From assembly GCF_016735685.1 (NCBI RefSeq), contig NZ_JAERRA010000002.1:124001-188000 (forward strand): 64,000 nucleotides of DNA. The letters run 5' to 3'. This document shows positions 9,000 through 11,624 of this stretch, piece after piece; the stretch's first letter is position 1, and every line of letters begins with the position of its first letter. Position numbers and translations under genes: made by a program. This DNA is from Piscinibacter lacus (GTDB lineage Bacteria > Pseudomonadota > Gammaproteobacteria > Burkholderiales > Burkholderiaceae_C). Under the pieces are notes generated by a model. It was not told the DNA's origin. It ran no database searches and saw nothing but the letters and a program-made list of their open reading frames with translations.

Positions 9000-10541
9000 T
9001 CAGCCCTGGGCCGCGACCCGTTCCTGCTTGCTGTGCAGCTTGTTCAGGGCCGCGAGGTAGGCCTTGGCCGAGGCGACGACGATGTCGGGATCGGCGCCGA
9101 CACCGTTGACCACCCGCCCGCCGTGCTGCAGCCGCACCGTGACCTCGCCCTGCGACTCGGTCGAGCCGCTGGTGATCGCGTTGACCGAATAGAGCAGCAT
9201 CTCGGCACCCGACTGGATCTTCGATTCGATGGCCTTCAGGCTCGCATCGACCGGGCCGTTGCCCTCGCTCTCGGCCCGGTGCTCGACGGCGCCGGCCGCG
9301 AAAGCCACCTGGGCACGCGGCCGCTCGCCGGTCTCGGACTGCTGGGCCAGCGAGAGCAGGCGGTAGTGCTCCTGCTCGGCGGTGACGCTCTCGTCGCTGA
9401 CGAGGGCGATGATGTCCTCGTCGAAGATTTCGCTCTTGCGGTCGGCCAGGTCCTTGAAGCGGGCAAAGGCATTGTTCACCTCGGCTTCGCTGTCGAGCTC
9501 GACACCCAGGTCCTGAAGGCGCTGCTTGAAGGCATTGCGGCCGCTGAGCTTGCCCAGCACGATCTTGTTCGCGCTCCAGCCCACGTCCTCGGCGCGCATG
9601 ATCTCGTAGGTGTCGCGGGCCTTGAGCACGCCGTCCTGGTGGATGCCGCTGGCATGGGCGAAGGCATTGGCGCCGACCACCGCCTTGTTGGGCTGCACGA
9701 CGAAGCCGGTGGTCTGGCTGACCATGCGGCTGGCCGGCACGATCTGCGTGGTGTCGATGCCCACGTCGAGGCCGAAGTAGTCGCGGCGGGTCTTAACCGC
9801 CATCACCACCTCTTCGAGAGAGCAGTTGCCGGCGCGCTCGCCCAGGCCGTTGATGGTGCATTCAACCTGGCGCGCTCCGCCGATCTTCACGCCGGCCAGC
9901 GAATTGGCCACCGCCATGCCGAGGTCGTTGTGGCAGTGGACCGACCAGATCGCCTTGTCGCTGTTGGGCACCCGCTCGCGCAGGGTCTTGATGAAGTTGC
10001 CGTAGAGCTCGGGCACGCCGTAGCCGACGGTGTCGGGGATGTTGATCGTGGTCGCGCCGGCATCGATCACGGCTTCGAGCACCCGGCAGAGGAAATCGGG
10101 ATCGGATCGGTAGCCATCCTCGGGCGAGAACTCGACGTCGCCGACCCGGCTGCGCGCATAAACCACCGCGCTGCGGGCCTGGGCCAGCACCTGCTCGCGG
10201 CTCATGCGCAGCTTCTTCTCCATGTGGAGTTCGCTGGTCGCGATGAAGGTGTGGATGCGCGCCTGGGCCGCACCGGCCAGGGCCTCGGCCGAGCGCGAGA
10301 TGTCGCGCTCATTGGCCCGTGAAAGCGAGCAGACGGTGGATTCCCGGATCGCATCGGCGATCGCCTTCACGGCCTCGAAGTCGCCGTTGCTGGAGGCGGC
10401 GAAGCCGGCCTCGATCACGTCGACACGCAGGCGTTCGAGCTGGCGCGCGATGCGCAGCTTCTCGTCCTTGGTCATCGAGGCGCCGGGCGATTGCTCGCCG
10501 TCGCGCAAGGTGGTGTCGAAGATGATGAGCTTGTCAGCCAT
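9000..10541 (-). CDS. leuA: 2-isopropylmalate synthase
   Basis: A 513-residue enzyme that condenses acetyl-CoA with 2-oxoisovalerate to give 2-isopropylmalate, the first committed step of leucine synthesis. The DRE-TIM metallolyase signature is present ([11 protein letters not shown] near residue 10) along with the metal-binding HCHND motif. The C-terminal 130 residues form the LeuA dimer regulatory domain for leucine feedback inhibition. Length matches the proteobacterial type. GGAG lies at a good distance before the ATG. A 24-codon Leu-rich leader and an attenuator hairpin precede it, so expression is probably controlled by Leu-tRNA charging. Citramalate synthase is less likely given the length and motifs. 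Confidence 0.95.
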
Positions 10542-10589
10542 GGGGAACTCCGTGGTCGGGATCGGAGGAAAGGCGCACGCCGGAAACGA

Positions 10590-10622
10590 AACGGCCCGCG
10601 GGCGTAATGCACGCGGGCCGTT
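10590..10622 (-). terminator. leuA attenuator hairpin (rho-independent)
   Basis: Perfect 11-bp stem: AACGGCCCGCG (10612-10622 read on minus) pairs with CGCGGGCCGTT (10590-10600), with an 11-nt loop, followed on the minus strand by TTTCGTTTCC. It lies between the leader peptide stop and the leuA start, where an attenuator terminator should be. Confidence 0.75.
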
Positions 10623-10661
10623 GGGGCATGGGAATCAGGGGTGCGCCATCAACGGGCCCGC
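10612..10661 (-). promoter_or_regulatory. Predicted antiterminator pairing of the leuA leader
   Basis: GCGGGCCCGTT (10651-10661 on minus, the last codons of the leader peptide) can pair with the 5' arm of the terminator (10612-10622) through 5 bp, a bulged C and 5 more bp. The two structures are mutually exclusive. A ribosome at the leader stop codon would cover the first strand and favour termination. Confidence 0.6.
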
Positions 10662-10723
10662 AGCTCGGCCGGCAGGCCGAGCAGGCCTAGCGACAGCAGG
10701 AAGGGGCGTTGGATCGAGCACAT
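10649..10723 (-). CDS. leuA leader peptide (24 aa)
   Basis: A 24-codon reading frame starting with ATG at 10723 and ending in TGA at 10649. Seven of its 24 residues are leucine, concentrated in the run FLLSLGLLGLP, and one Leu codon is CTA, which is rare in this GC-rich genome. It lies 50 bp after the pssA stop and 107 bp before leuA. Its last codons overlap one strand of the predicted antiterminator. This is the standard layout of a translational attenuation leader for leucine. No Shine-Dalgarno sequence precedes it; TACATT lies 6 nt upstream, so the leader mRNA may begin at the ATG. Confidence 0.7.
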   Translation of the reverse strand: MCSIQRPFLLSLGLLGLPAELRAR

Positions 10724-10729
10724 GAAAAG

Positions 10730-10735
10730 AATGTA
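10730..10735 (-). promoter_or_regulatory. -10-like hexamer before the leuA leader peptide
   Basis: TACATT on the minus strand ends 6 nt before the leader ATG. It would allow leuA to be transcribed independently of psd-pssA. The -35 region is not convincing. Confidence 0.35.
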
Positions 10736-10772
10736 GCACGCAGCCCCGGCCGCAGGACCCGGGCCTTGGCTA

Positions 10773-11624
10773 TCAGCCATGTAGGCCGCGTTCATCGGGC
10801 TCGTCCATCGAGGTGGCGATGACGCTGACCGGCTTGCCCTTGCTGCGCTTCCACACGTAGACGCCGTAACCCGAGAGACCGTAGATCCAGAACAGGGCAA
10901 ACAGCACCGCGGGCGGATGGATGTTGATCAGCGCGATGCCGAGCGCGATCGCGACGATCACGATGAAGGGCACGCTGCGCTTGAAGCTCACATCCTTGAA
11001 GCTGTAGAAGGGCACGTTGGTGACCATCGTCAGCCCCGCATAGAGCGTGACGCCAAAGGCCGTCCAGGCCAGCCAGGTGATGTCGCGCGCGCCGCTCCAG
11101 CCCATGTCGTCGAGCAGCCAGATGAAGCCGGTCACCAGGGCCGCAGCAGCCGGGCTGGGCAGGCCCTGGAAGAAGCGCTTGTCGACCACGCCGATGTTGG
11201 TGTTGAAGCGCGCCAGCCGCAGCGCCGCGCAGGCGCAGTAGACGAAGGCCGCGATCCAGCCGGCCTTGCCCAGGCCCTGCAGCGCCCACTCGTACATGAT
11301 CAGGGCCGGTGCGGCACCGAAGCTGACCATGTCGGACAGGCTGTCCATCTGCTCGCCGAAGGCGCTCTGGGTGTTGGTCATGCGCGCTACCCGGCCGTCG
11401 AGGCTGTCGAGCACCATGGCGCAGAACACGCCGACCGCCGCCAGGTCAAAGCGCTGGTTCATCGCCATCACGATGGCGTAGAAGCCACCGAACAGGGCCG
11501 CCAGCGTGAACAGATTGGGCAGGATGTAGATGCCCTTGCGGCGCGGGCGACGCGGCGGCATCGGATCGTCCGGATCCTCGTCCGCACCTTCGGGCAGGGG
11601 GCTCAGCTCGGTGCCGGTGCTCAT
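10773..11624 (-). CDS. pssA: CDP-diacylglycerol--serine O-phosphatidyltransferase
   Basis: A 283-residue inner-membrane enzyme making phosphatidylserine from CDP-diacylglycerol and serine. The CDP-alcohol phosphatidyltransferase signature DGx2ARx8Gx3Dx3D is seen as [19 protein letters not shown] with the last Asp in SLSD. About six to eight hydrophobic segments follow. The N-terminal 35 residues are acidic then basic (PRRPRRKG) and probably cytosolic. The gene overlaps the end of psd by 4 bp (ATGA), coupling synthesis of phosphatidylserine with its decarboxylation. It is the membrane-bound type II enzyme, unlike the E. coli peripheral PssA. Confidence 0.95.

Follow-up and report, generated by a model that had tools for sequence, protein, structure and literature searches.

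The window analysed here, a 64,000-nt stretch of the Piscinibacter lacus assembly GCF_016735685.1 (contig NZ_JAERRA010000002.1, positions 124,001-188,000 of the forward strand), contains leuA and, upstream of it, pssA, with a short leader region between them; leader elements and both genes are all on the minus strand (Table 1). pssA ends ~50 nt upstream of the leader, which comprises a Leu-rich ORF, a spacer of 26 nt after the stop codon, and a terminator hairpin whose 5' arm can alternatively pair with the end of the ORF. A sequence-only reading of this region had described the leader ORF, the terminator and the competing antiterminator, and all three were confirmed in the sequence. The ORF is rich in codons for the end product of the pathway that the next gene serves: 7 of its 24 codons specify Leu (CTG at 10699, CTG at 10696, CTA at 10690, CTG at 10684, CTC at 10681, CTG at 10675 and CTG at 10663), and its single CTA occupies 10690-10688. 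A second species of the same genus (L116) encodes the leader peptide MSFIAQPLLLSLGLIGLLAALRAR.

Table 1. Features of the leuA leader region and its flanking genes, in window coordinates
Feature	Position	Strand	Remarks
pssA, upstream, co-directional	10773..11624	-	TIGR00473 above cut-off
Extended -10 element, TGCTACATT	10730..10738	-	TG at 10738-10737, hexamer TACATT at 10735-10730, no conserved -35
Predicted transcription start, A of the leader ATG	10723	-	Putative, 6 nt past the -10
Leader peptide ORF, 24 codons, 7 Leu	10649..10723	-	ATG at 10723-10721, TGA at 10651-10649; peptide MCSIQRPFLLSLGLLGLPAELRAR
ORF-internal 8-bp hairpin, GCTCGGCC/GGCCGAGC	10663..10682	-	Predicted fold
Antiterminator 5' arm, GCGGGCCCGTT	10651..10661	-	Final leader codons and the T of the stop codon
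Terminator 5' arm, AACGGCCCGCG	10612..10622	-	Antiterminator shares 10613-10622, AACGGCCCGC
Terminator 3' arm, CGCGGGCCGTT	10590..10600	-	Followed by a T-rich, broken tract to ~10582
leuA SD-like GGAG	10551-10548	-	From the window sequence
leuA, 2-isopropylmalate synthase, short type, proposed regulated gene	9000..10541	-	NCBIfam NF002087 and TIGR00973 above cut-off

A chance scan of both strands of the window, for an extended -10 located 5-8 nt before an ATG, an ORF of 15-40 codons with at least 25% Leu and one CTA, and, no more than ~110 nt away, a perfect hairpin of 8 bp followed by a T-rich tail, returned one place only, the leuA leader, and returned nothing in 40 of 40 first-order Markov resamples of the window. 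With the -10 and CTA requirements removed, the window still gave one place, and 10 of the 40 resamples gave none. The predicted fold of the window leader RNA is more stable than those of 200 of 200 dinucleotide shuffles (z -3.5), and the leader of L116 beats 199 of 200 (z -3.3).

A promoter element at the leader start codon and a predicted leaderless transcript

Relatives were taken from the best 80 leuA loci of a longer list that resulted from a leuA search of genome contigs (the named loci), and were searched with a tight pattern consisting of TGnTAnnnT or TTnTAnnAT, a gap of 5-10 nt, ATG or GTG, and an ORF of 12-35 codons with at least three Leu codons, some of them close together. The pattern finds a leader in 70 of the 80 named loci and in the window, with a -10 element, mostly TGTGcTACATT, 6-10 nt before the Leu-rich ORF. 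Read by eye, the ten remaining loci comprise one that has a leader with two Leu codons (L038), one that keeps the ORF and hairpin and has no recognisable -10 (L082), two whose sequences begin too near leuA to show a leader (L027 and L067), three in which a long LeuA gene comes first and the sequence upstream is too short (L016, L022 and L024), and three with no leader upstream of leuA (L021, L056 and L062). Leader sequences were also read for 67 fetched loci of the family, 63 of which were usable (none was found in L140 and L142, and in L099 and L117, also excluded, the wrong frame had been picked). The 70 named loci, the window and these 63 family loci, which were chosen by a score that rewards Leu and CTA, make 129 distinct leaders after removal of 5 duplicates.

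In 112 of the 129 leaders 6 or 7 nt separate the -10 from the start codon, and in the others 8-10 nt, within the 5-10 nt (named loci) or 4-10 nt (family loci) that the search patterns allowed. When 128 leaders were aligned on the -10, information was concentrated in TGTG-n-TA-nA-TT and was almost nil from -40 to -13; the search patterns themselves specified the T, A, T and partly the TG of this motif, and left free the outer TG, the A that precedes the final two bases, and the preference for C and T. The best match to a -35 hexamer was 2 or 3 of 6 in 94 of 129 leaders, and no conserved -35 or operator was present in the 40 bp examined in the 128. Transcription from a sigma-70 promoter is expected to start ~7 nt after the -10, and the spacing observed here puts that start at the start codon, hence the leaderless reading. 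No SD-like sequence was seen before the ATG of the window leader, and SD-like 4-mers occur in 2 of 71 leaders (the window and the 70 named loci).

A true leucine attenuator with a conventional untranslated leader would also account for the ORF if its transcript started further upstream, for example through read-through from pssA, which ends close by in the same direction and with which leuA could be cotranscribed. The 69 of 71 leaders without an SD-like 4-mer argue against this arrangement, as does the -10-like element found at 6-10 nt from the start codon of the 129 leaders (the search patterns prescribed 4-10 or 5-10 nt), and we consider it unlikely. The same two observations lend support to the leaderless start that the sequence-only reading had suspected, and we think it likely that the 5' end of the transcript coincides with the leader ATG to within a few bases and that the leader peptide is translated from a leaderless message.

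Leader peptides vary in sequence and retain in-frame CTA codons

The leader peptides are 15-36 aa long (17-18 aa in 91 of the 129) and variable in sequence outside their Leu runs; Leu makes up 26.8% of their residues, Leu content being part of the search pattern. They matched nothing in Pfam or NCBIfam apart from one Pfam match at E 0.49, which we take as chance. Some leaders, in L119, L120, L125, L126 and L141, reach 31-36 codons, the Leu run being preceded by a long N-terminal part.

The leaderless arrangement resembles that of Sinorhizobium meliloti trpL as described in the available portion of PMC7298713, and a terminated leader RNA or peptide could on that analogy act mainly in trans, with attenuation secondary. 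The wide variation in peptide sequence and length, with mainly the Leu codons and the RNA pairing kept, speaks against such a role, and we regard it as highly improbable.

Codon choice within the leaders is distinctive. CTA accounts for 163 of the 322 Leu codons in the 71 leaders from the named loci and the window, as compared with 7 of 2,697 in the 71 corresponding leuA genes, and it is present in 71 of 71 of these leaders, which were found by a search pattern without a CTA demand. Across the 129 leaders, 296 CTA triplets are in the frame of the ORF and 16 are in the two alternative frames; the figure free of CTA bias is the one from the 71 leaders, because the 63 family loci were scored for CTA. 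Conservation of the Leu codons had been set beforehand as a test that could refute the attenuator, and Leu codons, strikingly CTA, do recur in relatives.

The genome from which the window comes has at least four tRNA-Leu genes, one each with the anticodons CAA, TAG, CAG and GAG (L221-L224, G000), and no tRNA-Leu with a TAA anticodon was among those scanned individually of its 42 tRNA matches.

A LeuA gene lies within 246 nt downstream of every one of the 129 leaders, being closest to the short type in 92 and to the long type in 37. Leaders before a long-type LeuA gene are found in, for example, L006, L008, L042 and L059. In named loci the long-type gene precedes the short-type leuA, and a single attenuator may therefore control both paralogues.

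These observations bear on another account, in which the hairpin is the ordinary intergenic terminator of the upstream pssA operon, leuA follows it, and the ORF is there by chance. The hairpin does lie between two co-directional genes, and some relatives (such as G066 and G033, considered below) have neither leader nor hairpin. Against it stand the excess of in-frame over out-of-frame CTA, the near-absence from leuA of a codon that forms half of leader Leu codons, the appearance of the leader, again within 246 nt, where a long-type LeuA gene is next, and the manner in which the ORF tail tracks the terminator arm, presented in the following section; we give this account very little credence.

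Terminator and antiterminator pairings in relatives

The window terminator is a perfect 11-bp hairpin with an 11-nt loop (-25.1 kcal/mol) and a mediocre U-tract, TTTCGTTTCC; an intrinsic terminator between ORF and structural gene is present in the window and in relatives. In an alignment of 69 distinct rows (A1, which omits L051), its eight pairs are kept in 99.1% of cells, 53 cells show two-sided change, and none of 500 shuffles was as high on either measure.

The antiterminator (10661-10651 with 10622-10613) consists of 10 Watson-Crick pairs and one bulged C. Its six-pair core is kept in 92.0% of cells in A1, a level that 0 of 500 shuffles reached, and sliding it out of register left at most 51% of cells paired. 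The pairs themselves are nearly invariant, with only one changing on both sides (A-U in 43 rows, G-C in 4). Counts of two-sided pairs and of pair types in A1 gave no excess over shuffles; the antiterminator has 4 two-sided cells versus 10 and 6 for slides of +1 and +2, and a covariation score of 0.063 versus 0.073 and 0.072 for slides of +2 and +3. Because the aligned pairs are nearly invariant, covariation in the antiterminator rests mainly on two divergent loci, L157 and L156, and on switching of reading frame.

In L157 (G140), both partners have changed wholesale: the leader tail is GTCCGCGTAG and the terminator arm CTACGCGGAC, which match over 10 bp. The L157 partners pair at -19.5 kcal/mol, as compared with -6.5 or -9.6 when the arm of L054 or of the window is substituted, and the reverse arm swaps also lose energy (-12.4 to -8.2 and -22.0 to -10.8). 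In L156 (G021), a terminator arm with ACCCG is matched by CGGGT in the leader. The frame evidence comes from GGGY, the motif responsible for the pairing, which occurs 87, 22 and 14 times in frames 0, 1 and 2, respectively, among 123 leaders (the 129 minus 6 rows in which a regular expression found no terminator arm). Being found in all three reading frames, the motif is kept as RNA and not as peptide; it is absent from the last 33 nt in 12 of 129 leaders.

The position of the complement is also consistent. The best complement of the terminator 5' arm lies no more than 30 nt from the ORF end in 113 of the 123 leaders, versus ~43% by chance (the rows are related, hence this count is not a probability), and in 95 of those 113 it lies 5-15 nt before the ORF end. 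A per-row dinucleotide-shuffle test of the duplex was weak, with a median of 0.17, a window value of 0.06 and values of 0.05 or lower in 7 of 71 rows; shuffling the leader tail makes a weak test because both arms are short and GC-rich. RNAalifold, applied from leader tail to terminator arm, recovered a GGGC-type stem of five pairs in 51 rows (-7.6 kcal/mol); in 20 rows whose leaders end in the TGA or CGCTAG manner, and which include the window, it gave only a very weak stem (-0.4).

Sequence and folding alone thus place in this leader an antiterminator that uses the terminator 5' arm and is mutually exclusive with the terminator. Recurrence of both exclusive stems had been the other advance test, and both recur in relatives, with two-sided changes in the terminator and joint change of arm and tail in L157.

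The block that follows the leader stop codon is conserved in relatives as GCGCACGCG or CACACGTC (window 10646-10639, A1 columns 138-145). Sequence would allow this conserved block (GCGCACG) to pair with the terminator loop, but the covariation of such a pairing was no higher than that of shuffles.

An RNA that senses leucine or another ligand directly, as a riboswitch or protein-binding leader with an incidental ORF, is suggested by the compact structured leader before a biosynthetic gene, but the RNAalifold consensus of 70 leaders over the whole alignment contains the terminator alone, Rfam (including RF00512, the Leu leader) has no match in the window at gathering thresholds or in 8 relatives up to E 1, and the leaders keep in-frame CTA codons; we regard this explanation as highly improbable.

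Predicted ribosome positions and a proposed mechanism

The pairings were folded as a function of ribosome position, using only the RNA outside the ribosome and ending before the terminator 3' arm is made, with a downstream cover of 12 nt, the size of the ribosome footprint on that side. When the A site is occupied by Leu codon 9, 12, 14, 15 or 17 of the window ORF, the antiterminator forms with its full 10 pairs (codon 10 gave the same energy as codon 9, its structure not being drawn), and when it is occupied by codon 21 or the stop codon, no antiterminator pair forms. The full window RNA at equilibrium favours the terminator; the antiterminator must therefore win by forming first. The most frequent distance from the last CTA to GGGY is 12 nt (60 of 115 leaders), which is about where the leading edge of a ribosome with CTA in its A site would fall given that footprint. 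The window leader is an outlier: its ORF is longer, its U-tract is poor, and its one CTA lies 31 nt from GGGC, with CTG and CTC codons between. In the same-genus relative there are two CTA codons, the layout being otherwise similar.

In the window, the predicted hairpin within the ORF (10682-10663) could have a protecting or pausing role and, with its flanking pairs, is a possible segment 1:2 hairpin tying up the antiterminator arm. L116 folds differently in this region, so conservation of the hairpin is unsupported.

From the elements observed in the sequence and how they are conserved, together with frame, codon choice, spacing and complementarity, we infer the start site, translation, pausing, termination and leucine response, and propose the following sequence of events. 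RNA polymerase would start at or near the leader ATG from the extended -10 promoter, which has no conserved -35 or operator, and a ribosome would initiate on the bare 5' end and read the Leu codons. If Leu-tRNA were scarce, above all the tRNA reading CUA, the ribosome would pause on one of the first six Leu codons, leaving 10661-10651 free to pair with 10622-10613 before the terminator 3' arm is made; with the antiterminator formed, RNA polymerase would read on into leuA. If Leu-tRNA were plentiful, the ribosome would reach the stop codon and cover 10661-10651, the 11-bp terminator would form, and transcription would end near 10585. We infer that leuA would be induced by leucine shortage. The conserved Leu codons, their frame and codon choice, and the two stems found in relatives support the initial proposal of a ribosome-mediated leucine attenuator, and we consider it very likely that the leader is a functional transcription attenuator of this kind before leuA.

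A broader reading joins several features in a family-wide, stripped-down leucine attenuator: a -35-less extended -10 would sit at the start codon with no operator or SD; the ribosome would load on the bare 5' end, so that no pausing hairpin would be needed; control would be exerted via translation of CUA codons whose distance from the antiterminator arm is one ribosome edge; and the terminated leader, of ~135-140 nt, would double as a small leaderless mRNA with the capacity for action in trans. As a whole, this combination is tentative, and we doubt that all of it holds together.

Distribution of the leader among relatives

A covariance model of 133 positions, built from 69 named loci and the window with L051 left out, matches 268 of 299 sampled genomes of the family, representing 128 of 141 genera; some of the 268 may be species used in training, at least one match is off-target (that of G216 is not at leuA, and G216 leuA has no leader), and the strict filters of the large genome scans can miss weak matches. 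The window's own match has an E-value of 4.1e-9, partly by construction, and that of the second species of the genus 6.3e-10. In a sample of the order the model matches 19 of 399 genomes, of which 11 belong to the family, 4 belong to a single genus of another family, and 4 match over the terminator half only; in a sample of the class it matches 4 of 274 (3 of the family and 1 partial). Full-length matches outside the family are confined, in these two samples, to that one genus. These data point to leucine control of leuA across a large family.

The other-family genus (L180, L181, L182 and L183, from G617, G437, G307 and G589) carries a leader of this kind before a LeuA only 29-30% identical to that of the window, and either shared ancestry or transfer may explain it.

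Sixteen of the 31 family genomes without a match were inspected. Nine have no close orthologue of the window's LeuA, three (G021, G092 and G140) have a divergent leader despite the lack of a model match, and one (G083) is incomplete at the leuA start; in G033, G066 and G088 no leader is present just upstream of leuA, and G066 and G033 are also without the hairpin. Among the weak matches, which include that of G216, the one in G264 is to a decayed leader.

Apparent loss or decay of the attenuator is seen in L021, L056, L062, L082, L151, L152, L153, L154 and L155. L155 keeps the promoter and lacks an ATG for the leader; in L151 and L152, pssA is immediately followed by leuA.

Comparison with known attenuators

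Our literature searches, for which two key papers and one supplementary list were out of reach, turned up no account that we recognised of a leucine attenuator in the window's family. Putative leader peptides and terminators upstream of branched-chain genes are on record for various Gram-negative species (Vitreschak 2004, as cited in the accessible text of PMC6123439). In Burkholderia cenocepacia, 82 5'UTRs are stated to yield short transcripts by processing or attenuation (PMC5688073, in part), and the sections available of a start-site mapping study describe leaderless transcripts in general; the main text of that study contains none of the terms "attenuat", "isopropylmalate", "leader peptide" and "leucine".

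The kind of regulation proposed here is textbook; its family-wide, stripped-down, leaderless form is the notable part. Its many natural variants of a minimal attenuator offer a way to examine how translation of a leaderless message stays abreast of RNA polymerase.

In S. meliloti, the trpL transcript begins at the ATG of a leaderless leader peptide (available portion of PMC7298713), and trans functions have been reported for rnTrpL and peTrpL. The likeness lies in a leader ORF at the 5' end of the transcript, which in our case is a prediction from sequence alone, and the differences are that trpL responds to another amino acid (tryptophan), belongs to the Alphaproteobacteria and encodes 14 aa. 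The sequence-only reading had called a leaderless leader peptide unusual; the one predicted here is neither an oddity of this genome, being a family trait, nor unprecedented, given trpL. In actinobacterial Corynebacterium glutamicum, ilvBNC offers a second likeness, which is one of description and concerns a different gene, ilvB. Both ilvBNC, with a leader peptide that lacks a ribosome binding site (Morbach 2000, by its title in PMC10272879), and the ilvB-II motif are branched-chain amino acid attenuators with an upstream ORF, according to the available part of PMC10272879.

Leucine attenuation is classical in Escherichia coli and Salmonella (PMC6123439, in the part available), and the leader described here shares with their leuABCD attenuator the Leu control codons in a leader peptide and a terminator with a competing antiterminator before leuA, as well as CUA control codons with the Salmonella leu leader. 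Replacement of CUA by CUG lowered sensitivity (Carter 1986, cited in PMC1183508), and the selective-charging account was worked out for E. coli leaders (PMC1183508, both from the portion available); the preference for CTA, a codon near-absent from leuA of the same species, gives that idea independent support. In contrast to the enterobacterial leu leader, the -10 here lies at the start codon, there is no SD, leuA follows pssA, and the final leader codons themselves form the antiterminator arm; the usual peptide length, 17-18 aa, compares with 28 aa in E. coli (PMC6123439, same part). We take the leader to be a probable further leucine attenuator, with its predicted leaderless start as a variant feature.
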